DNA from: Isoetes taiwanensis
Lineage: Eukaryota > Streptophyta > Lycopodiopsida > Isoetales > Isoetaceae
Direction: 5' to 3'
Assembly (NCBI GenBank): GCA_021234155.1
Contig: JAJEKV010000035.1
Span: 6,819,891 to 6,883,890, forward strand
DNA: 64,000 bases
The position numbers were made by a program, and so were the translations under genes. The notes beneath the pieces are model-generated. The model worked only from the letters and a program-made list of their open reading frames with translations. It ran no database searches and was not told the DNA's origin. Of the stretch, positions 12,265 to 36,170 are shown piece by piece. Numbering within the stretch: position 1 is the first letter of the stretch; each line of letters opens with the position of its first letter.

Positions 12265-12268
12265 TAAT

Positions 12269-12293
12269 AAGTCGTATTTAATTAAAGTGGGAC
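12269..12293 (+). repeat. Left terminal inverted repeat
   Basis: 25 bases identical, in inverted orientation, to 24500-24524. Preceded by TAAT at 12265-12268. Confidence 0.85.
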
Positions 12294-12461
12294 AAATCTT
12301 GAATTTTGGGACTCGGACTGAAAATGGGACTCACACACCATAAAAGAAATTTCTGAATTGATTGCTTGAATAGAATTACACATGACACACATAGAATTGG
12401 GTTACTTGTTTTCCTCATAAATTTTACAAACCACTAGTTGAGAAAGTTTTCAAACTTCTCA

Positions 12462-15410
12462 ATATTATGCACCCTCATACAATGATATAGCATGGAGGTT
12501 GCTCATGGCCTTGTCCATCTCCTTTCTTGGGATCTTGTGTGTGTTGTCTTTTGCAATGTGAGAACTTGGATATGACCATACCACACACTCCACCAATTCC
12601 CTCCTTTGAGGGTCAGCATAATTTGCCCTCCACTTCTTCTCCCAGCAGTCAGTGTATTGCTCCTTCAAGTTGCCCTTCTTGTGCCTCCCAATGGGCTCCC
12701 AATATTGAATTTGGAATCCAGGACGCAACTCCTCTCCATCGAGGCATAGTGGTGGTCACATCGAGAGTGCCACCCCTAACCATATTGGACAGTCCTCATC
12801 ATCAGGCCTTACTAGCACAAAGTATCCTTCCTTGATGTCCTCAAAGGGATCCCACTCATGAAGATCAAACCACTTCGGCTTTGAGGCCTTACTTCCCACA
12901 AACCACTTGGAACCCTTGTTGGGACCCAAGTGAGCATTCTTAGACGTGCTTGCACCTTGAGAACCCTCCCATCTTGACTCGGCAAGAACCCGTCTCTTAG
13001 CTCCCTCCCACATGGTGTTCGGTTTCTAAGCATGTCACAACTTTCTCCCAAAGACTTGATTAGGAGTCCATTTGATTTTTCTTAAGAGTGGAGGTGTGCT
13101 TTCCATTTTGAACATCATCCCGGTCGTTATGTAATCCTTGATGCCCTTCACCGGGGTTGGCTAGAGTCTTTGACTGTCTTGAAGGGAGGTAGTGGTTTTG
13201 GCTGCCCTTTAGGAATGAGAACTTCACCAAGAAAGCACCCCTTTGCCACAACTTCGATACCTTGTACAGGCATCCACAACTTGTCACCGGTCTCCACTTA
13301 TATTGCATGATTGGTATTCCATCCCTAACCCAAAACTTGAATTGAAGTGGCTTTGTGTGTCTGTCAACCGGTCCTTGCCATCTAGCAAGTATCCTTCTAC
13401 AAATGATTTCCAATCTGCAACCTCATCCATCAAGAAAGCCATTGGGTTGGGGTCAATGCGCTCTCAAACACATCCATTAGTTCGGGGAGAGTGGTCACGT
13501 TTTTCTCTCTTGAGCTTGGTGGAGAAAGTTCCAAAGAATCCATCTATATCATCATCGTATGCCCAACCATCATGAATCCCACTTTCACAACTTTGAATAC
13601 TCCCACCTTCTTTGTCAAGTATGACATTGCCCCAAACATCCATCTATTCTTGTTTTCTTTCCAACAGTTGTCCAACCGAACACATAGCTCCTCGCGGTGA
13701 TTTCTCAAGTAAGGGGAAATCATCCCAAGTCCTCCTTGATTCACTAGACACCTTGGATGTGAGCTTTTTTTTATCGCCTTTGGTAACAAAGCGGTTGATC
13801 ATCCATCAAAGCCTCAAAAATGGGTCTTTGAAGGGGAATACCTCCTCCCTTCTATCGATCCTTTCTCTAGTGTTCTCGGGCACTTGAAAATAGAGCTCAC
13901 ATGGAAGTTTGGATCATCTCTCCATAGATCAAGCACAAAATGACCATATGTTCCAGTTCCATGACCATGTGTTAATACACCCGCCGGACTTACTTTCATC
14001 CGAAAAGCGTTTTTGACAACGCTTGGGTAAAGGATCTAGCTTTGGCAAGAAAGTCTTGTGTTGGTCCATCTTATCATGAATTATACACAAAAATTTGTCC
14101 TATTTGCATCTCGGAAAATGTTCTCCCGCCAATACAACCTGTCTACATGATATTTGGTCCCTTTGGTGATCTGCCAAATTGCTCCCTAATTGCCATTCTT
14201 TCTTTCTCTATTGCAGTTGATGCAAGTGTATCCTTGAGTTGAATGCAAGTGTTGCACTTTGAGAATGGCATGTGTTGTAGGACACTCACGTCCGAGAAGT
14301 GAGTGCTCCATAACTTGCTGAAATGTGATTGAGAAAGAGGCCTACCTCCAAGTAGTTTCTAGGATGGAGTTGACCTCCTTAAGGCACTCCTTTTGGATAT
14401 AGTGTTGTGGCAACACTCTTTGCACCACTCGCACACCGTGCTCGCGTTCACCTTCGACTTGTGGGGCATAGATTGAGACATGTATCTCACAAAGCTCTCG
14501 AAGACTGCATTGCTCTAGGTTTCAAAGTGAGTGCATTACCATGTTGGAACAAAGTGTGCCCTTTTCTAACCTGCTCCCAAAGATTCGTAAAAATGAAGAC
14601 TTGCTCACCCCAAGAATCCATCTCAATGCTCTCATACATACCTTCATCCCCTCAATTGATATAGCGGCCGTCCGTGTTTTCATCATATATTTGGAATTCC
14701 TACACAAGGAGTAAATGAAATTAATCCTATCTTTTTGAAGTTTGTCCAATGTATTGGGACCTTATTATTCCACGAGGTCATCCACATTGTAATGCCTTTG
14801 TGCAATCTAGGTTGCAACACTCTTGTCCCCTAATTGCCTCCGGGTTTTCTTTGGTTGGTGCCATACTTTCCATCCTTTCTAAATATTTGTCACTTCTAGG
14901 CCTCTTGGGCACCTTTTGGCTGCCTTTTATGAAAGACATAGCGTCTCTTCCTTGTGATCAAAGGATGCTCATCGACCACCAAATCTTCCACATGGCCTTG
15001 GGTGGGCCTTGGGGGTGTGTAGTTCAAGAGGGCATTCTAGAGTATCACCATTCTTGTGTGTAATAAATCTAATTGGCCATCTCAATCGAGCTTGGGACTC
15101 CAGCAGCCCCGAGCACACAATGCAATCACTAGAGCTTCCACGGGACATGATAGTATCAACCGATAAGAAGCTTCACAATGCCAACTCCAAGATGTTCATC
15201 TCCCAGCCTCTCATCATTCACACTATCAAATGGATCAACTGCAGTTATTATGCCCTCTGCAAATACCGTCTGGTTGCAAGGGTGCAACAAAAGGCAACCC
15301 ATCTTCCTCCATTGGAGCCTAGGGCAATGGCCTCCTTTGGAATTCCCTGGCTCCATTTTACTCATCTCACATGCTCCCTGAATGAAAAAGCTCACATTAA
15401 AACCATATAG
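12462..15410 (-). pseudogene. DUF7869-like transposase-type gene, frame-broken
   Basis: Read on minus from about 15410. First comes an N-terminal segment with VFAEGIITAVDPFDSVNDERLG (15160-15400). A Cys-containing block with the VCMRALRWILGVSKSSF pattern follows at about 14560-14640. Then VCEWCKECC (about 14430) and a block of the type LWSTHFSDVSVLQHMPFSKC with a CxxC (about 14240-14320). The catalytic-like core has KVSPAGVLTHGHGTGTYGHF (13940-14000), LDNCWKENKNRW (about 13650) and VGFMMVGHT (about 13560), the family's D-N-C / ENKN / FLMVGHTHEDID landmarks. The C-terminal half includes WKSFVEGYL (about 13405) and YFVLVRPDDEDCPIWLGVAL (about 12780), ending near 12462. Order and spacing match one protein of about 950 residues. 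Several frameshifts and stops make it inactive. The family is widespread in plants and animals, and a DDE-type transposase role is my inference. Confidence 0.7.
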
Positions 15411-15690
15411 CCCCAAACACCACAAATATGACCATATGAACCATATAAAACCATACAAACATATTAAATATAATCATATTAAATCATACAACCATATTAA
15501 CTAAAATCATACAACCATATTAACTAAAATCATATAACCATATTAAAGCATACAACCACACTCATTCTAAACCATATGTAAACATTGTAACCATTGAAAC
15601 CATATTAAATACAACCATTGAAACCATATTAAATACAACCATTGAAACCTTATTAAATACATAAGATAACATATATAAACATATAACCTA
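15408..15690. repeat. AT-rich degenerate tandem repeat (ACCATATTAAA type)
   Basis: About twenty loose copies of AACCATATTAAATNNA-like units run head to tail. They lie just upstream of the minus-strand transposase-type gene, so they would form part of its 5' region. Confidence 0.65.
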
Positions 15691-15699
15691 CCCTTTCAT

Positions 15700-15910
15700 A
15701 TTTTGTCATGGCCACGTGGCGCCTCTCAGGCTGAACCGCGGGTACGCCTTTAATCCAGCGCCACGTCATGGAGGGCATGGCCTGCGTGACAATGGTTTTA
15801 TTATTGCACTTTTATTTAGGTTCGAGGGTGCGGTAATTAACCGCACCCTCTTCCTCTCCCAGACCATTCTTCCTCCCCTGTTTTCTCGATCACTCTTCCT
15901 CCCCCTGTTT
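15700..15910. promoter_or_regulatory. Candidate divergent promoter with G-box and 27-bp hairpin
   Basis: This GC-richer stretch lies between the minus-strand transposase-type gene and the plus-strand cargo. It has a CACGTG G-box (15713-15718) and a second GCGCCACGTC near 15760. A perfect inverted repeat lies at 15824-15850 (arms GAGGGTGCGGT and ACCGCACCCTC around AATTA), followed by CT-rich sequence typical of plant 5' leaders. Promoter function is inferred from position and motifs. Confidence 0.4.
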
Positions 15911-16199
15911 CCTTAGGCTTCGCTTCATGCCGTCGAGGGCGACGATCGAACCGAGCGATTCCAGCGCCATCTTATGACAGCAGCTTGGTCGACGGATCAG
16001 GACGCTTCCAGCGCCGAAGTTCTCGCGCAGATTCATTGTTCGAGCGGGCGTTACCGCCTGAGAAGAAAGTGAGGCCCTTTTTAGTGCTGCTTTTTAGTTT
16101 TCTGTAAGTCCTTTAGTGCATTTTTACTTATATTCTGTTGTTAGAGGCTCTTATTAATCCCTGATACAATTTACAGCCCGACAAATCCTTATTCACGCT

Positions 16200-16620
16200 T
16201 TGTCAACGACTATACCCACATGGAAGCGAACTCGGAAGCCTCCTCCTCATCCAGCAAATCTTCCAGGTATGTTTTTGTAATATCATACCCTTTTTTAATC
16301 TCATTTTTCTGTACTGTTCTCCACTGTTCTCTGTACTGTTCTCCACTGTTCTCTGTTTTCTCATTAATCTCATTAATCTTTGTATTGTTTTCTGTTTTTT
16401 GTTATCTTTTTCTTGCTTGTGGTTGAATTGAATACATTGTACAGGCACAAGTGAGAATAGTGGTTAGAGTAGTAGCAAGCAACCGAGATAGAAATCATCA
16501 GAGACTGGTGTTAGGAAGTAAGATATTGCAGAGCATTAACAGAAAATAACTAGGAATGTCTTTCTCCCAAAGAAGAACTCGAATAGGAATTGCTTCCACG
16601 GAATCTCCATTTCTAACTCA
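16200..16620 (+). other. Possible first exon of the plus-strand cargo unit
   Basis: An ATG at 16220 opens a short Ser-rich stretch (MEANSEASSSSSKSSR) that ends at a consensus GTATGT donor at 16268. A pyrimidine-rich tract and a TACAG acceptor follow at 16440-16444. The acceptor side reaches a stop after three codons, so the coding role is doubtful; a spliced leader is possible. Confidence 0.25.
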
Positions 16621-18060
16621 CAAGAAATCCTTTAGTAGGAGACATGCGAAGGGAGTGGCGAGTTGAGAATACTTCAGCTTGCCAACGGTCCGGGAAGTAC
16701 GGGCCTTCTTCTCGACTTCATGAGTCGAGAACTTCTCGATTTCAGGGCAGAAGAGGGAGTGTACACTCTGGATGTTGGCGAGGTTGAGGGATTCTCGACT
16801 TCGCGATTGGAGGCCGCGGCTACCCAATGTCTTCACATTCTTTAGAACCCTGTTTGCGGCCTTCACCATTTCGTGAGTGAGAATGTGATACCCGCCAATG
16901 GCCCACAGGTGCCTCCACCCGTCCTGAGCCACTCTCCTTCGAACCATGCTCGCCGAATATTGCGAAGAGGACTGCTCAAGCCCCGGGTGGAGGCCTCGAC
17001 GGCAACCCCCGAGGTGCTGGCGGCTTTCGACTTCGTGAGTCGAAAACGCGAACTCTAGTGCACTCTAGAGCTGGCTGCCGGGCGATCTCAACCACTCTCC
17101 TTCTATCTTCCTCGGACATTGCGAAGGGAAGTGGCGGATTTGTCTGCGGAGCCAACTTTAACCAATTCTCACGTTGTGATGCGGTGGCCTCTACCCAATC
17201 AAAAGACCGTCTCCTTCGAACCATCTTCGCCGAATATTGCGAAGGGATGGGCTCACGATTGGGTGGAGGCCTCGGCGACTAACCACAGAAGTTGCTGGCT
17301 GCTTTCTCGACTTCGTGAGAAAACGCAGCTCTAGTGCACTCTAGAGCTGGCAGCTGTGAGCCAGTCTTAAACACTCTCCTTCTATCTTCCTCGGACATTG
17401 CGAAGGGAAGTGTTTTATTTGTCCGGGCCAACTCTTAACAATTCTCTGTATTGTGGTCGTTGATGGCCTCTACCCAATCAAAGACCGTCTCCTTGAACCT
17501 TCTTCGTGAATATTGTGCGAAGGGGATGGGCTCACGATTGGGTGGAGGCCTCTACAACAACCTGAGGGGAAACCACGAGCTTGTTGTATGCATTCTCGGC
17601 TCGCCCGAGTGGGAATGCCTTACCCAACCGGCACTCCATGTGTACTAACAGGAGTTACGGATGGCCAAGGCATTCTCGACTTGCGGAGTGAGAATGTAGA
17701 AAGAAGCCAAGCATTCTCGACTACAAGTCGAGAATCCCTTAGCCGACCAATTCTCACGTGAATGCGGTGGTGGCCTCGACCCGGTCAGTCACTCTCCTTG
17801 AACCATCTTCGCCGAATATTGCGAAGGGAGGGGCTGACGGGGTGGGAGGCCTCTACAACTAACCGGGGAAACCTGAGAGAGGAAGCCAAGGCTTGCATTC
17901 TCTACAAGTCTTTGCACTTTCTATTCTCCATTTTTTAGTCCCAAGTGCCTCTAGCCACATGCGAGCCACTCTCCTTGAACCATCTTCCTCGAATATTGCG
18001 AAGAGGAGTGGTTGGACGTGGATGGAGGCCTCGGACTAACTACAAGAGGATGCATTTGAA
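16620..18060. repeat. Degenerate tandem array, about 280-bp period
   Basis: The block CTCTCCTTCGAACCATCTTC-GCCGAATATTGCGAAGGG-ATGGGCTCACGATTGGGTGG-AGGCCTC (or a close variant) recurs at about 16930, 17210, 17485, 17785 and 17970. Between copies lie palindromes of the CTCGACTTCGTGAGTCGAG type. Each block itself holds an inverted CTTCGC/GCGAAG pair. Unit lengths vary by deletions. No continuous ORF crosses the array. Confidence 0.7.
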
Positions 18061-18880
18061 CCGCATCTCGGGCCTTAGTCCTAGCCTGATCTATGTACAA
18101 CATTCAAGTAAATGTGATCCATGAAAAACACACCTAAAACGGAACTGTTCTTTACCTCGATCCATTGTTTCCTTTGCAGCATCTCTCAACCCGAAGAGTA
18201 AATCATCTATCGAAGTTGAAAATGCTCGACAAAGAAACAATGAATCCGTCGAGCTTATCGGCGGTTCCATTATTTAAACACATACGGCATGTTCTACAAG
18301 CGAAATAACATAGGCATTTCACGCGGTAATTCCTTGGGCCATCAGTATCCACGGATCCCGCAGCCTCACCCGAGTCTTTGCTTCTTACGCTTGGGTCTCT
18401 TCAAGAGTGTATTCGCATCTAATACTTGTATCAACTGCGATTTCAGTATCCCCGATTCCATGGCGCGCGTTGTAGAGTTCTGTAATGCAGGCTCCTCTCC
18501 GCTTCCTACCTTAGCTCGTGCTCATCGATCAAATCAACGCGCTTGCAATAGGACGCGGTCGGGAAAAAAACACATATGCAAAGGTATTTGTTAGCAGCTT
18601 ACCGCGTCATGGCGCCATTCAGGAAGTCGCTAGCGATTCGATGCTCCCCCTCCAAGTCGAGGTCCCCAATGCCGAGGGGAAGATAAACTACGCTCCGCTC
18701 ACTTAGTCCCTTGATGTGATTAAATTTGAAATAGTGTTTGGGGCGGGCTAAAGCCGACCGTCTTTGTACTTTAGCCCGCTTCTTTTCATAAATGATTGCA
18801 TGTCCTTAAGTTCAAACTAAAAGAACACGCCCGATCTTTTTACATGCAGGTCCTAAAACTCACAACCCAGCGGAGGAAAC
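18060..18880. other. Cargo-side stretch without an identified gene
   Basis: ORFs of about 60-100 codons (18289-18594 and 18518-18706, plus) have a coding-like GC content. Neither has a recognisable motif. They may be decayed 5' exons of the gene that follows. Confidence 0.3.
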
Positions 18881-20179
18881 TTAATTTCTGAGAGGGTGCT
18901 AAGAGGATGAGAGGGCATATAGACATGACTCCGCCCAAGAAGCTTTAGGCCGGAGGGGATGCTTCTACCAAATGGGCAAAGAAGAAGAAGAAGACAAACA
19001 CCCCTGTGAGCTCGAGGTTTTTCTTTTGTCGGAATACCTGGCGATCCATCCTTTCTTCTTGCAAAGATTCACCTCGGACTCACCGGTGATCACCGGGCCA
19101 AACTCCATTCTTCGTCATCGAGGGATTTGGAGACGAGCTTCTTGAAACAATGGCAGATTCTTGGTGGTATGTCGAGGTATCGACAAGTGGGAAGGAGAAA
19201 GATCTGTTTCTACACCAAAGGGACAAGAAGAGCTCAGGAGACAAGTACAAGAAAATCGGTGTTGTGCTCTCCGATCTCTGCGCCCGATTGAAGCATTTAA
19301 CACTACATGTCGGGGACTGCGGAAAGAGTAAGTTCTATCGCACCAAAAAATTAGCAGTTTCAAATTATTCTCACTCTTCCATGAGCAAGGCTAAGGGCAC
19401 CGAAAAAAGGCCGGCGCCTTTAAATTGTCAGAACCTTGGGTGGAAGGATCTGGAAGGGATGAAGGAGGCGGAACCCTAACATCCGGGGAGCTTGGTATGG
19501 AGATTTCAGAGTCGGGAAAAACATTTCAATACGGGGGAGCTTCACTTCTACTGTGCTGAAGACTCTACAACACTCTACAGTGGGGAATGAAGTTGTGGTT
19601 CATACACAAAAAAGTCCACCAAAAAACAAAGATGGGGATGATGACACCACACGGGAGGAATCAGATGACGAAGGAGACGAAGATATGGTCGAGTCCCCAA
19701 ACCTCGATCCAGATGATCAGATTAGGATTTCACAGAGAGGGGCACAGAAAATGGAGCGTCTAGCTCAGTATTATCCGTTGGGAATATCACACAAGCTGCT
19801 CTTTGGACATTAGGCGGCTGAAGGTTTGCACGGAGATGCCGCCTTGTTCAACCGGGGGAATTTAATCCAAACACATGCCGGAGATTCGAACACGATGGTG
19901 CGACATCCTGTTGCAGATCCAATGCCTGCGGATGTCATACCTTTTAGCAGATCGACAGGTGAGTTGTTCAGCTGGAAGTCTGAGGAAGATCTGAAGGGAA
20001 AAGAAGTCCGGTTCTGGGTTGTAGACGGTCAGCATTCAGTGAGGGCGGCTCAAGTATTGCAGACGGAGAAGGAGGTGCCGCAAAGGATCAAGGATAGATA
20101 TGCCAAGCGAGAGTGCGAGTTCTTTCGGCGGAGACGCCAAAGCAATCGGCCAAGATTAGCCAATGCCCGAACACAATAG
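18880..20179 (+). pseudogene. DGQH-motif protein, N-terminal part (transposon cargo)
   Basis: Coding-like sequence begins after a TGCAG acceptor near 18849, with a basic patch (WAKKKKKTNTP at about 18975). In another piece of the same frame come FFVIEGFGDELLETMADSWWYVEVS (19110-19185) and a Lys-rich block. After a frame change near 19500 there is an acidic segment (KNKDGDDDTTREESDDEGDED), then NRGNLIQTHAGDSN (about 19845). VIPFSRSTGELFSW precedes RFWVVDGQHSVRAAQ at about 20010-20055. The pattern of a VIPF strand followed by VVDGQHSxxAA resembles the ParB/sulfiredoxin fold and the DGQHR motif of DndB-like proteins. Interruptions: a stop near 19087, a stop at 19496 region and TAG at 19811-19813. 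Biological role unknown. DNA binding or nucleotide hydrolysis would be expected of a ParB-like fold, but that is inference. Confidence 0.5.
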
Positions 20180-20199
20180 CGCAGCGAAGTGCCGACTAC

Positions 20200-20625
20200 A
20201 CGAAGGTAAATAACTCTCGAATCTTTCCATTCTCGACTCGCGAGTCGAGAAAAGCCCCTACCATCCTAACATTTGCCGATTATCATCGGGGTTTTTCGAC
20301 TCGCGGTCGAAAGCAAAAGCAAATACAGAAAATCAAAGGATGTGGAGCTTCGACTCGCGAGTCGAAAACCCTTAGCCGATAAAAAGAAAATTAGACATTC
20401 AAAGGGACTTTCTCGACTCGCGAGAAAGCCCCCGCCATCCTAACATTTGCCGATTATCATCGGGTTTTTCGACTCACGAGTCGAGAAAGCGGTGGTATCT
20501 GAAAAAATCAAAGGATGCGAGCTTTCTCGACTTCGGAGTGAGAAACCGAGAGAAGTAAAAGAAAATTAGACATTCAAGGGACTTTCTCGACTTCATGAGT
20601 CGAAAACCCGGCTACTATTTATTTC
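20200..20625 (+). repeat. Palindrome cluster (GACTCGCGAGTC core), six to seven copies
   Basis: Palindromes at about 20230-20253, 20294-20314, 20349-20369, 20408-20428, 20466-20489, 20522-20545 and 20582-20606, all variants of TTCTCGACTCGCGAGTCGAG. Longer flanking text also repeats (CCATCCTAACATTTGCCGAT twice, and AAAGAAAATTAGACATTCAA twice). The cluster falls exactly between two coding-like blocks, so it may sit in an intron. Confidence 0.75.
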
Positions 20626-22250
20626 TTGTTTATTCGGGTGTTTGTAGATACTTTCATGCTCGACATTGGTACATTGTGCGAATGCATCCTATATCGACAG
20701 ATCATACACGCTAGGCAACAGTGGAAAGCATTGGGTTGTCCTCAGCGTCCTAAAGGAAACAGGGCTCCCTCGGATAAGTGGAAGACCTTTGAGAAACTAT
20801 GCAGATATGTTCTGCTGGAGGGACAGGAAGATGACGAGGGAGAGGAAGAAGAGGAGAAGAAGAAGAGAACACCAAGGAAAGGCAGGGAGTCTCTCTCAGA
20901 CCAATATGACCTCATTCTTAGCACTGAGGCGGTCTGGGAGAAATGGAATGACATATGGGCTCAATGGACAAGAGGCAAGTTGAAGGACAGCAATGGAGAA
21001 TTTCCAAGCAGGCCGGACCCCAAGTTGTTTGACAAGCGGTTCATGAAGAGGATACGAGGGCCTCACCGGACAAAAAACGCTTGACCTACAAGGCAAAATC
21101 TTGGAGGGAACAATCCTGCTAAGGAAGACCAGGAGTTCTAAATTGCAGGACGCAAAGGATTATGCCACAGTCCTAAAGCGACAGCGTGCGTTAGAAGAAG
21201 GCATCACGGAGTTCTGCAACGTTGCATCTAATGAATACCATGATTTTGATTATTACAAGGAAAAGGCTGCCCTTGATGAGGAAGACATGAAGGAATTGAA
21301 CCGTCTATGTCAACCCTACATCAACACCAAGCTGAAGCGTAACGTCAAAACCCTTCCTTTCCCTGAACGTGCTATGGCAATTCTGAAAAGGAAGCTTGGA
21401 TTCGGGTGGTCCCATTTAAATGACGATAGCTCCCCATTTCTTGTTACTTTGGGACACAAAGGGATTTGGTGATGCAGGCGGCACTGGACCCGTGGCACTA
21501 TTTGCCATCAATATGATCGAAGACCCCACCCTTTTTTATGACAAAGCTGACATAGAGCAGTGGTACAAGACGTGTCTGGACATGACCGACCTGGATACTT
21601 TCAGTTTCCTTGTCTTTTTGCATGCCGGGCAATCAAACAAGCGATGTCTCCCAATGGGCGGTGATATTAACTTCACCAACAAGATCATGCACTCCATATC
21701 TGAACTTGATCATGAGTGCGGACTTGGCTTGCCGAAGGCACCAAGCTTGCCAACATAGTTTTGGTTTTGATTTCAAGATCGGCGGTCGACTGGATAAGTG
21801 GTGGTCTAGCGAGCATCATTATCTCGACAAGTTCATGATCTCTCAAGAGCAGATGGAACCACGGAAGGGGCGAGGTTTATGGAGGATGTTCCATCGATGG
21901 GCGTCGGCAAAAGATGGTGCGACCGGTCCTATACATAGAATTCCTATCCGGCCAAGAGTTATCAAGTACTTCATAACCAAATTTTGGTCGAGGAAGATCA
22001 AATTGTATGCGAGTGGTACATGAATGGCACTGTTCTCTCGGGGGCTATCTTTGCATTTTGGAATGAAACCTATATCCGTGGTTGGAAATAAGGACATGGT
22101 TGAAACCATTCGGTCATACACGGATACGCTTCATGAGCATTTCAAGGGGAGGAAGACAAATGGAAGCGATAAAGGCGGCGAGGGCGAGGGAGACAAAGGC
22201 TGGCGGAGGCGAGGATGTCGAAGGTTTGGACGAGAATCTCAATAAAACAT
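20626..22250 (+). pseudogene. Cargo gene, second block (continuation of the DGQH protein?)
   Basis: Successive open pieces: 20690-21081 (an acidic run EDDEGEEEEEKKK, then STEAVWEKWNDIWAQWTRG), 21050-21471 (KDYATVLKRQRALEEGITEF; YINTKLKRNV), 21470-21758 (GGTGPVALFAINMIEDPTLF; FLHAGQSNKRC) and 21710-22020 (FKIGGRLDKWWSSEHHYLDK). The last piece reads DQIVCEWYMNGTVLSGAIFA near 21996-22055. The pieces overlap with frame changes at about 21070, 21465, 21750 and 21990. Composition is that of one large soluble protein continuing from the DGQH block across the palindrome cluster. I do not recognise the family. That both blocks are one gene is inference from orientation and spacing. Confidence 0.45.
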
Positions 22251-22567
22251 TATTGAAAACCCGAGATTGAGGTGAGTTTACTTTGCTCTATCGGTGTTTC
22301 TCGACTTCGCGAAGTCGAAAAACTCGTTCCTTTCAATACCTTTTCTTTTCATTCTCGATTTCGCGAGTCGAGAAACTTCGTTCCTTTTCGGCGGATGTCA
22401 TCATTTCGGGGAATTCCAGCTCAACGACTCGGATCATTGTCATTGGGGCGGTTCACATTGCGAGGAGAATGAAAAGGACAAAGACAATCGAGCAAGACAC
22501 GCTCCACGCCCGGAAAAGAACTTTGAAAAGATAATGATCCGCATTTAGATCCCGATGAACCGGAAAT

Positions 22568-23115
22568 ATGGTCGAGCCAAACTCCAATCGGGATCAATTT
22601 GGTCCCACCAAGCTTGTAATATTTGACGTCAATGGAGTATTAGCTGTAGTATACCACGACAAAGGCGTCCCGAGATTAACACCTCATGAGATCCCAATGA
22701 AAGCAGAGCATAAAATAGTGTATCCAAGGCCTAGAGCTAAAGGAAATTATTGGACCGGTGCCCAGCGCGACTGGATTCGAAGTGGGCATATGGTCTTGTA
22801 TGGCAAAAGAAAAATATTGTCAATGTTCTTGGTGTTCTCGGCATTTCAGTTTTGAAGTTCAAGTTCGGTTTGGGGAAACGAAAGGGTCGAGCATGTGAAG
22901 GACCTCGATCCAGCCATCACAAAGGGAAGCCTATAATGGTGAAAATTTTGGGCCGGGGTTTATGAGCAATTCGAGGACTATGGCAAACACAACACGCTGA
23001 TCATAGGCGACTCCGCCTATAAGTGCTATCATAACGCCGCATAAAATACAATCATTGCTAAGCCATATCGACCTGAAGAATATGAGGCGGATAGGTGGTT
23101 GTCCTTAGGACTCTG
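22568..23115 (+). pseudogene. FCP1/NIF-type HAD phosphatase domain (transposon cargo)
   Basis: Pieces in three frames follow the order of an FCP1-homology (HAD) phosphatase. HAD motif I region: KLVIFDVNGVLAVVY (about 22610-22660), where the second acidic position is Asn, as in some plant FCP1-like proteins. Then a YPRPRAK piece, FEVGIWSYGLVWQKKNIVNVLG (about 22776-22840; normally VGVWSS...NV), a KGKPIMVKNLG-like piece (about 22920) and NTLIIGDSAYKCYHN (about 22990-23037; motif III), then IIAKPYRPEEYEADRW. At least two frameshifts and one stop (TAA at 23042) break it. An active copy would dephosphorylate phosphoserine or phosphothreonine on a protein. It follows the DGQH gene on the same strand, so it is probably cargo of the TIR element. 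Confidence 0.65.
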
Positions 23116-23359
23116 TCTGTCTTGGCGGAATCCCTCTTCGCCATTCTTGTATGCCCGATGTGCTTTACGAACTATCCGAGCCTCACGGAACCCGATCCGA
23201 GAAACAAGCCGATCATGAAAGCTATGGGCGACAAATACTTTGGTGAACAAGAAGAGTGACCAACTTCCGGATAGTCAAATTGTGTGAATATTGTAATCGA
23301 GCGTGAACACATGTATTGACCATTTTGTAATGAATATACTTGTATATTGAGTTTTTGAT

Positions 23360-23615
23360 GCCTTTTCGACTCACGAGCCGAGAAAGGCATGCTGTCGTCG
23401 GTTGATGAAATGCTTGTACAATCTATTATGATAATGCTTGTACATTGGGTTTCTGGGCCTTTTCGACTTCGAAAGTCGAGAAAGGCATCTTGATTGTCTG
23501 ATTGACAAAAGCATTTGTATGCTTCCGTGTGTGATTGGATGCAACCATATTCTAATGAGAATGGTTGTACTTTGACTTTTATGGGCCTTTCTCGACTCGC
23601 GAGTCGAAAGACACT
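23360..23615 (+). repeat. Palindromes in the 3' part of the TIR element
   Basis: Three further copies, at about 23365-23389, 23459-23483 and 23588-23611, each following a similar run of GTTGTAC/TTGTACATTG. They lie downstream of the FCP1-like relic in non-coding sequence. Confidence 0.7.
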
Positions 23616-23739
23616 ACTCCCACGTCATTGGATGCGGTTGTATGGAATGAATGTTCTCCGTTGTAATTTGATTTCAACATTCTTTTCTTCGTTTTGACTA
23701 ATGGCACCGTAATTGTTAATCATACTCTCCTTGCTCAGG

Positions 23740-24190
23740 TGGTTTAGGCGCAGATCGACACCAGCCACAGATCCATTTCGAGGCATCCAGAGACCGCTCC
23801 CAGGCGACCACAGATCCGGCTCAAAGGCGAAGAAATACCGTTACGCACGAGATCCGATCCACGCTACACTCTTGCCCGGCCTTTGGGACAAGGTTGCTCT
23901 TGAGTCGAGAGGTTGCTCGCTACACCACAGGGATAAAGAACGGCGAAGAACAAAGAAAGTCCGGGAAGCTCAAGGCATATTGCAAGCATTGCATAACATC
24001 CACGGAGGTTGGGGAAGGAGCATATTGATGAAAGGCTGCGGGAGGCGAGTGGAGAAGTCGGGTGGACAGGTCGGTAGGTAGCTCAGGAGGCACCTCCGTG
24101 AGGCATTCCACACTCTTCAAGTTGCCCCCCAAGGCTTCAGAGACGGCATGAAGAAGCGCCCTACAAGTTAATCCCCTAAGGTGGACCACC
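23740..24190 (+). other. Coding-like tail block, unidentified
   Basis: GC-rich, partly open sequence with a piece RKSGKLKAYCKHC near 23950-23990, where CxxC hints at a zinc-binding end. It is followed near 24224 by CCGCCATGGTCTCTGCGTCC, which recurs in changed form at 34460, and by AT-rich sequence with AATAAA at 24276. It may be the last exon and 3' region of a cargo gene. Confidence 0.3.
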
Positions 24191-24499
24191 TACCAAGATG
24201 ATGTAAGCAGAGGACGGCCAAGACCGCCATGGTCTCTGCGTCCGATGTAAAATACATTGTATCTGTTCAATTTATTAATAAAAATTCTTTTTCAACTACA
24301 TCTTTGGTTTCAAACTTTAATGAATTTCCTTTGTTTCAGTTGCATTGTTTTTGTTCTCGACTCGCGAACCTGGGAAAACTGCAGCACAGCTCGGATTCAG
24401 AGTTTTATTCAAAAATTCGAATTAAGGATAGTTTTCGGGTCGGGGTGCTACTTTTTATGTAAATTAACCGGGTTCCGAAAAAAAATGGGAATGGAATGA

Positions 24500-24524
24500 G
24501 TCCCACTTTAATTAAATACGACTT
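24500..24524 (-). repeat. Right terminal inverted repeat
   Basis: 25 bases, the exact inverted complement of 12269-12293. Followed by TAAT at 24525-24528. Confidence 0.85.
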
Positions 24525-24977
24525 TAATACATTTTCTATTGAAAAGATAATTTTCGCCAATTGGATCAAACTCTACATGTTCTATGAACTTAAAGACCAC
24601 AGATGAAGTAGATAAAATAAGTGGGTTCAATCTGACCGTCAATCTTGATCCACAATAGGGACAGCATTTGAATGATCCCTTACTATGTTTTGATGTTGTC
24701 TTCGGATTTGTACTATAAAATTATATACCTTAATTGATCACCGCATAAAATGCCCATTACACTTTGTTTCGTGCTATTTTATCTTCATTCCAAGTTACTA
24801 AGAATACATGGAGACTTATTAATAAGAACTATAAGTTGCATTCAATGTTAATAAGAGATCCACTTAAGACGAAAAGGTAACAATTTTCCACTAACTTGGA
24901 GCAAGCAATTTTTTTTAATGAAAGCAACGTGGTGAACAAAACAAAAACCAAGGTTGTGTGCAAATTATTACAAGACA

Positions 24978-33830: not shown

Positions 33831-33949
33831 ATTATTTAACCTTGAGGCTTGTCAGTTAGTAAGTTATTAATTTCGTTAAATTTGAAAATGGGGCATGTTA
33901 GAAGAATTAGGTCTAATTAGCCATATGTGGTTCACGATATTGGAGATTG

Positions 33950-34825
33950 AAAATCATGTTTTTCACAGTCCAAAGAGGCCCTCAGACTTGAATTTTTCAC
34001 TCTGAGCTATCTTCCTCGCCTGCAAGTCGAGAAAGACCCCCGAACCTGCTTTTCACTTTGACCTGCCTTTCTCGATTCGCAAGTCAAGAAAAGCCCTCAG
34101 AACTGTGTTTTTCACTCTAAGATGCCTTTCTCAACTCGCGAGTCAAGAAAGGCCCTCAGGCATGCATTTTTTCACTCTGAGCTACCTTTCTCAACTTGCG
34201 AGTCGAGAAAGACCCTCAGGCCTGACTTTTTCACTTTGAGCTGCCTTTCTCGAGAAAGGCTTCCTAACTTGCATTTTTCAAAAATGGCCTTTAAAACTGG
34301 TTTCATATTTTACTTGTCATGTATGTAGCATTACTCTAACTTGATTCTATCTTTGATAGGCCTTATCCCGTGCCTTAGAATAGGTCAGAGAGTGCTGAAC
34401 ACAACATTGGCATTAGGTGGTTCATGTGTGAAGAGGGTGTAGTCGTTGTCACATCACGGCCGCTATGGTCTCTTCATCCACTGTAATATATATTGTAATG
34501 AACCCAATTATAAATATGAATTCTTAATTTTTGTTGGAGTTTGTGATTTCTTGTCTACGCATCTCAGAAAAAAGGGTCGAAATGTCTTGGCAGAGGGATT
34601 TTCCCTCATATGAAAAAATTGTTATGTTCAACGACTCAACTTGTCATCCGAGAAAAAATTCGCGAAATATCTTCGTGAAGGGACCGAACCTCACATGGAA
34701 AAACTCGTCTTTTCAATAATTAATTAGGCGAAAAAAACTTTACACGTCGTGTAAAATAAGAGGATTCCCAAAAAAAAAAAAAAAAAAGGGAATCGCATGT
34801 GACCCACTTTAATCAAATGCGACTT
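33950..34825 (+). mobile_element. Right-end relic of a second copy of the large TIR element
   Basis: Five palindromes of the TTTCTCGACTCGCGAGTCGA family lie in tandem at about 34013-34250, with a roughly 57-base spacing. Then come GGCCGCTATGGTCTCTTCATCC near 34459 (counterpart of CCGCCATGGTCTCTGCGTCC at 24224) and a terminus at 34801-34825 that matches the right TIR at 24500-24524 with three mismatches. Neither a left end nor the transposase-type gene accompanies it. Confidence 0.65.
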
Positions 34826-35903: not shown

Positions 35904-36170
35904 CGGTATAAATTTATACCGCAAGAGGACTCAAACGGTATATATTTATACCGCTCTCTCGGTATAAATTTATACCGCGAGAGTTCTCTCGGTATAAACT
36001 TATACCGCGAGAGTTCTCTCGGTATAAATTTATCCCGGATTTATATATTTTTATGTATATATAGTATATATATACTATATATATAGTATATAACAAAAGT
36101 AAAAAAGTCAACTCTTGCCGTATAAATTTATACGGTAAGAGTTCTAGCGGTGTAAATTTATACCATTTTT
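35904..36170. repeat. Array of GGTATAAATTTATACC palindromes
   Basis: At least six hairpin units: CGGTATAAATTTATACCG or variants at about 35908, 35938, 35959, 35991 and 36020, then after an AT-rich gap 36118 and 36149. Between them GCGAGAGTTCTCTCG spacers are themselves palindromic. Some units have single changes on one arm (TAAACTTATACC; TTTATCCCGG). An internal (TA)-rich stretch (36040-36090) also folds back. Confidence 0.85.

Follow-up and report, generated by a model that had tools for sequence, protein, structure and literature searches.

Sola DNA transposons are said, in the 2009 account of Bao et al., to generate 4-bp target-site duplications and to carry a DDD triad, whilst in bacteria the ParB protein binds parS. 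In the available part of one report, Sola1-1_Ec32 of Ectocarpus is a 21.5-kb element encoding a transposase, with a ParB-like / N4/N6 DNA methyltransferase protein encoded on the opposite strand, and brown, green and red algal transposons are reported with a ParB-like and DNA methyltransferase partner (PMC12477816). Sola2 elements, as far as the accessible portion of their description goes, show AT-rich 4-bp duplications (AWWT, ATAT, AAAT, ATTT) and terminal inverted repeats (TIRs) that are 12-21 bp long, and they also carry passenger genes (PMC3627910). Here we describe an element of 12,256 bp within a window of 64,000 nucleotides (the whole stretch of DNA analysed) from the vascular plant Isoetes taiwanensis (contig JAJEKV010000035.1, positions 6,819,891 to 6,883,890). 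It encodes, on the minus strand, a member of the Pfam family DUF7869 (PF25273), which Pfam describes as being of unknown function, and, on the plus strand, a ParB-like protein with a DGQH motif and a HAD/NIF phosphatase-like protein (Table 1).

The element is in all likelihood a Sola1-like DNA transposon with a DUF7869 transposase, a ParB-like accessory protein and a probable NIF cargo gene, judged Sola1-like from the published description of the Ectocarpus element. An initial annotation of the window had proposed that the element would define a large cargo-bearing transposon group; because the same gene pairing is published for Ectocarpus Sola1-1, the element is probably Sola1-like and not a new kind, and the basic architecture, a transposase with a divergent ParB-like/methyltransferase gene, is already in print (PMC12477816, in the part available). 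A second DUF7869 family described below (family 2) likewise has stretches coding for both domains, oriented divergently from its transposase. The window family differs from Sola1-1_Ec32 in its length of 12.3 kb, its lack of a recognisable methyltransferase, its added NIF phosphatase-like gene and its vascular-plant host, and palindrome arrays are not mentioned for the Ectocarpus element in the available part of that report (PMC12477816).

It is rather unlikely that the element is a true DDD/E transposon whose DUF7869 protein belongs to Sola2, or to a superfamily of its own, instead of Sola1. Sola2 likewise combines AT-rich 4-bp duplications, short TIRs and extra genes (PMC3627910, accessible portion), and Sola sequences lay outside the comparison; however, the divergent ParB-like/methyltransferase pairing is reported specifically for Sola1-1 of Ectocarpus (PMC12477816, in the part available), whereas the Sola2 passenger is Fanzor and the accessible portion of the Sola2 report makes no mention of a ParB-like gene (PMC3627910). 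Literature searches returned nothing under the name DUF7869 and bacterial papers only for DGQHR with transposon; no DUF7869 link, vascular-plant case or palindrome arrays were found, which is weak evidence of absence since full texts were not covered. What is possibly new is that both families contain a repeated ~22-bp palindrome, a different one in each, as would be expected of parS-like sites.

Element borders and genomic copies

The two 25-nt TIR arms are 100% complementary and separated by 12206 nt, and at up to 3 mismatches the 25-mer occurs at 3 sites in the window compared with 0 in 100 shuffles. Arm coordinates and shuffle control thus confirm the perfect inverted termini, some 12.2 kb apart with flanking TAAT, that had been read from the sequence initially. 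The third site (34801-34825) is the right terminus of a diverged relative, for which no transposase piece was found within the window. A further 51-base stretch at 39543-39593 matches the element's right end (80%) in inverted orientation and is probably another remnant.

We searched the I. taiwanensis genome (1,658,258,908 bases in 1110 contigs) with each end of the element, scoring 40 sites among 1537 candidates for the left end and 40 among 1749 for the right, the remainder being unscored. All 40 scored left-end places were near-identical. The 20 other copies retrieved share the element's borders on the left, each starting at the identical base and aligning to it, with L023 and L024 ending early and L019 carrying an internal deletion. 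Right pieces were retrieved for 17 of those copies, and 16 hold the right terminus; in each of the 16 the duplication is matched, over 4 bases in 15 and over 9 bases in L015, and L019, which lies whole within its own piece, has the duplication ACAT. This first set was selected with a query containing TAAT, so the shared AT ending of its duplications is attributable to selection. A second set (n = 10) was selected with a query without flank; both ends were present in five copies, all with a 4-bp duplication (AAAG, CTTA, ATAC, AGAA and ATTT). In L048 and L056 (CTTA and AGAA) a mismatch in the left TIR meant that the duplication was read by eye, and the AGAA of L056 sits in a microsatellite. The other five had no left TIR in the piece, a script call for L062 being a chance match. 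Overall, a 4-bp duplication (at least 4 matching bases), as initially proposed, was borne out in 23 of the 23 copies with both ends located, the window included, and the target looks AT-rich, only five duplications being free of selection. The element belongs to a bounded, multicopy mobile element family, which is probably young.

DUF7869 as the predicted transposase

The left gene had been recognised as DUF7869-like by its LDNC, ENKN and VGHT landmarks, and its membership is confirmed by PF25273 matches that exceed the curated threshold (26 bits), both for the window open reading frame (ORF) carrying these motifs (4.4e-14, 52.9 bits) and for a pieced-together reading of the transposase (6.7e-43, 147 bits). 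The proposal that this protein is the transposase holds by prediction. An RNase H-like core is predicted for DUF7869 homologues (the longest in the set being 1334 aa), and the alignment contains conserved acids, the third ones being D209 and D211 in 37 of 37 rows, with E at position 208 in 32 rows and D in 5. A search for sequence relatives in the PDB returned none at E <= 1. These homologue-based predictions support reading the DUF7869 protein as a recombinase with an RNase H fold. Such a protein would pair the 25-bp ends, cut them via acidic residues located in DKMD (first), LDN (second) and GHTHxDID (third), and insert the element at 4-bp staggered sites.

It is very improbable that the element is a non-autonomous carrier moved by another enzyme, with DUF7869 as a passenger. 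As assembled, the DUF7869 gene lies in one open frame in 0 of 21 copies, and movement was not observed; against this, the homologues combine a predicted recombinase fold with conserved acids, DUF7869 recurs in a second family with inverted termini, and no other recombinase was recognised among 13 pieces (9 + 4) scanned against Pfam. We also considered and rejected a provirus or Polinton, no such gene being recognised in the pieces scanned.

Genome-wide, PF25273 gave 9903 first-look candidates, and all 150 that were scored exceeded the cut-off, the longest of their open frames measuring 987 aa. The gap between 9903 and the 1537 and 1749 candidates for the window family's DNA ends suggests many other DUF7869 families, these counts being unscored and not like for like. 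No DUF7869 was confirmed in viral contigs out of 87 pattern matches, and the 3 found among 49 pattern matches in prokaryote genome contigs are probably eukaryotic DNA in bacterial bins. An intact, intronless DUF7869 frame of 947 aa (L076:595-3438) was observed on a contig binned as a cyanobacterium, which is probably eukaryotic contamination; no TIR pair spanning this gene was identified, and L077 and L078 showed no clear partner gene.

A second DUF7869 family

Family 2 comprises three loci, L079, L080 and L081 (C1018, C1034 and C1081), of which L080 and L081 were extended to both ends. Its transposase has long open frames and is ~23% identical to that of the window. Divergent to it lies a ParB-like stretch (VLGGNHSFKARRQL), followed on the same strand by DNA methyltransferase coding sequence matching MTase_II (1.6e-6, L081) and PF01555 (1.5e-16, L080). 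The ParB-like and N6/N4 methyltransferase stretches are separate open frames, presumably exons, and the arrangement spans about 8 kb. The termini of L080 and L081 are inverted and, by eye, like those of the window (..GCATTTGAAACGGGAG vs ..GTATTTAATTAAAGTGGGA); no 4-bp duplication could be read by eye in either locus, whichever end was assumed. The possibility that DUF7869 genes occur mostly outside such termini was thus sampled at three fetched loci, and the two extended have inverted termini, without a readable duplication.

Probable accessory and cargo genes

The ParB/DGQHR-like protein of the initial annotation was located by its DGQH motif, around which a weak match to the ParB-like PHROG 1033 was obtained (E 0.011). 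None of the 7986 candidates scored from 5.8 billion proteins was a DGQH homologue, and neither PF01555 nor any other Pfam family matched the C-terminal part of the window protein. In the window family, sequence comparison supports a ParB-like part alone, with no recognisable methyltransferase. The family-2 ParB-like stretch, itself a weak match to the ParB model TIGR03764 (E 0.041; 13.5 bits, where the cut-off is 143.75), aligns colinearly with the window DGQH protein. That this protein is unrelated captured cargo, its likeness to the family-2 protein having arisen by chance, is improbable: the library matches are weak, but a second family, itself very diverged, also has related ParB-like coding sequence pointing away from its DUF7869 gene, which argues against the protein being mere cargo. 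The DGQH gene is better read, from this recurrent pairing, as an accessory gene. The cargo reading offered initially for both rightward genes consequently gives way for DGQH and is kept for the NIF gene.

The HAD phosphatase-like protein was substantiated by PF03031 (NIF) on a pieced-together reading (2.5e-10, 40.7 bits against a cut-off of 21.8), the window ORF by itself giving no Pfam match. Phosphatases of this kind usually carry the motif DxDx[TV]; FDVNG stands in its place here, making phosphatase activity doubtful. The NIF gene may be captured cargo, possibly a captured host gene.

Family-specific palindromes

Sites of the TTCTCGACTCGCGAGTCGAGAA type (at most 2 mismatches) number 0 to 11 over ~9.9 kb in 20 copies, two of which have none; the window copy has 5, and spacing in L011 is partly ~60 bp. 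The diverged relative with its right end at 34825 carries three window-type palindromes with changes, ~60 bp apart. Family 2 repeats a different palindrome, AAGTGTATTCCGGAATACACTT, whose 16-bp core occurs at 6, 7 and 7 sites in the three loci, compared with 0 in 50 shuffles of each. Several of these sites are 41 or 42 bp apart, and they are located within or next to the ParB-like gene as well as between genes. Each palindrome is absent from the other family, and L080 and L081, 66 to 77% identical in aligned stretches, both retain AAGTGTATTCCGGAATACACTT despite this divergence.

Palindrome counts irrespective of sequence weigh against attaching meaning to their abundance. The element contains 7 perfect palindromes with arms of at least 7 (0.57 per kb), where shuffling gives 1.7 on average, and three other window parts have 3 against 0.6, 1 against 0.5 and 11 against 2.1 (0.24, 0.11 and 0.38 per kb); a second count gave 11 against 0 to 1 shuffled in the element, yet 20 against 3 to 6 downstream. 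Palindrome density by itself is not special in the element; the special trait is the recurrence of one palindrome sequence.

As in the bacterial ParB/parS system, a protein with ParB-like motifs is encoded beside repeated palindromes of ~22 bp, although here the setting is a eukaryotic transposon, no library match reaches curated level and binding is putative. On the basis of this arrangement, the family-specific ~22-bp palindromes may be candidate binding sites of the ParB-like protein. More tentatively than for the transposase, the ParB-like protein would bind its element's own repeated palindrome, as ParB binds parS, and once bound might help to join the distant ends or mark the element. 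Extending this comparison, it is conceivable, if somewhat doubtful, that DUF7869 (Sola1-like) transposons encode a partition-like system of their own, in which a regularly spaced, family-specific palindrome would serve as a parS-like loading site. Loading of the ParB-like protein, then spreading or bridging, would bring together ends separated by 8 to 12 kb or mark element DNA, keeping large elements mobile, and a matched pair in each family would prevent cross-reaction.

Other repeats were also observed. L076 contains two 27-nt palindromes of a third kind, barely above chance (3 against 0 to 1 shuffled, or 1 against a mean of 0.4). Diverged repeat blocks ~280 bp apart (CTCTCCTT..GAATATTGCGAAG) occupy 16930-18020, between the gene sets, and three long palindromes centred on a shared TATAAATTTATA motif and flanked by TCTCTCGG or TTGCCG, unrelated to those of the element, lie at 35954-36143.

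Table 1. Features of the element and of a diverged relative in the window (positions counted from the first base of the window)
Feature	Position	Strand	Remark
Left target-site duplication TAAT	12265-12268		Directly outside left arm
Left TIR, 25 bp	12269-12293	+	First base identical in 20/20 fetched copies
DUF7869 transposase gene	12468-15392, ends approximate	-	Frame broken in assembly; ~890 aa or more across copies
ORF with LDNC..ENKN and VGHT motifs of DUF7869	13547-13798	-	PF25273 4.4e-14
First cluster of short palindrome-like repeats	16707-17744		TTCTCGACT..AGTCGAGAA type; between gene sets
ParB-like (DGQH) accessory protein gene	19015-22200, right end approximate	+	Probable intron, from sequence, at 20224-20607
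VVDGQHSVRAA motif	20018-20050	+	Weak ParB-like PHROG match around motif
Palindrome cluster in probable intron	20224-20607		Includes perfect TTCTCGACTCGCGAGTCGAGAA at 20230-20251
Palindrome pair	22296-22375		
HAD/NIF phosphatase-like gene	22463-23215	+	FDVNG motif; PF03031 on pieced-together reading
Palindrome cluster	23357-23612		
Right TIR, 25 bp	24500-24524	-	Terminus located in 16/17 right pieces
Right target-site duplication TAAT	24525-24528		Directly outside right arm
Right end of diverged relative, outside the element itself	33940-34825, left limit approximate	+	TIR with 3 mismatches and same palindrome type

Broken reading frames

In the window and 20 other copies, the transposase gene stays open over at most 295 aa. 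Compared with their own majority over ~3.3 kb, the 21 copies each carry substitutions at 1.55 to 3.84% of positions and between 24 and 77 indel runs. The indels cluster at fixed sites: of 98 blocks, 34 contain 455 of the 640 indel-bearing row-blocks, and in these 34 the 21 copies show between 6 and 21 different strings. Six spots inspected were short garbled patches flanked by nearly identical stretches. In L009-L028, short fixed-site patches were seen to be garbled differently in many of the copies. The Isoetes assembly was produced from ONT v9.4.1 flow cells with miniasm, racon and pilon, according to the available part of its description (PMC8566536).

The frame breaks look to be mostly systematic nanopore base-calling error, unmended by short-read polishing in repeats, so that the assembled frames give little indication of gene function. 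That the copies are instead decayed fossils of a dead family, as the number of indel runs and the lack of an open transposase frame in any of the 21 copies might imply, is distinctly improbable, given that the indels fall at fixed sites between nearly identical neighbouring bases in the six spots and that the sequencing and assembly methods fit such error in repeats (PMC8566536, in the part available).

Implications

If base-calling error is responsible, it would make many transposon genes of the Isoetes genome appear dead. Through this element, DUF7869, an uncharacterised domain, gains a mobile context along with a probable function. One vascular-plant genome, that of Isoetes, also shows what is reported for brown, green and red algal transposons, namely a DNA transposon whose ParB-like and DNA methyltransferase partner is of prokaryotic type. 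The family-specific palindromes make binding of ParB-like proteins to their own elements a precise, testable idea.

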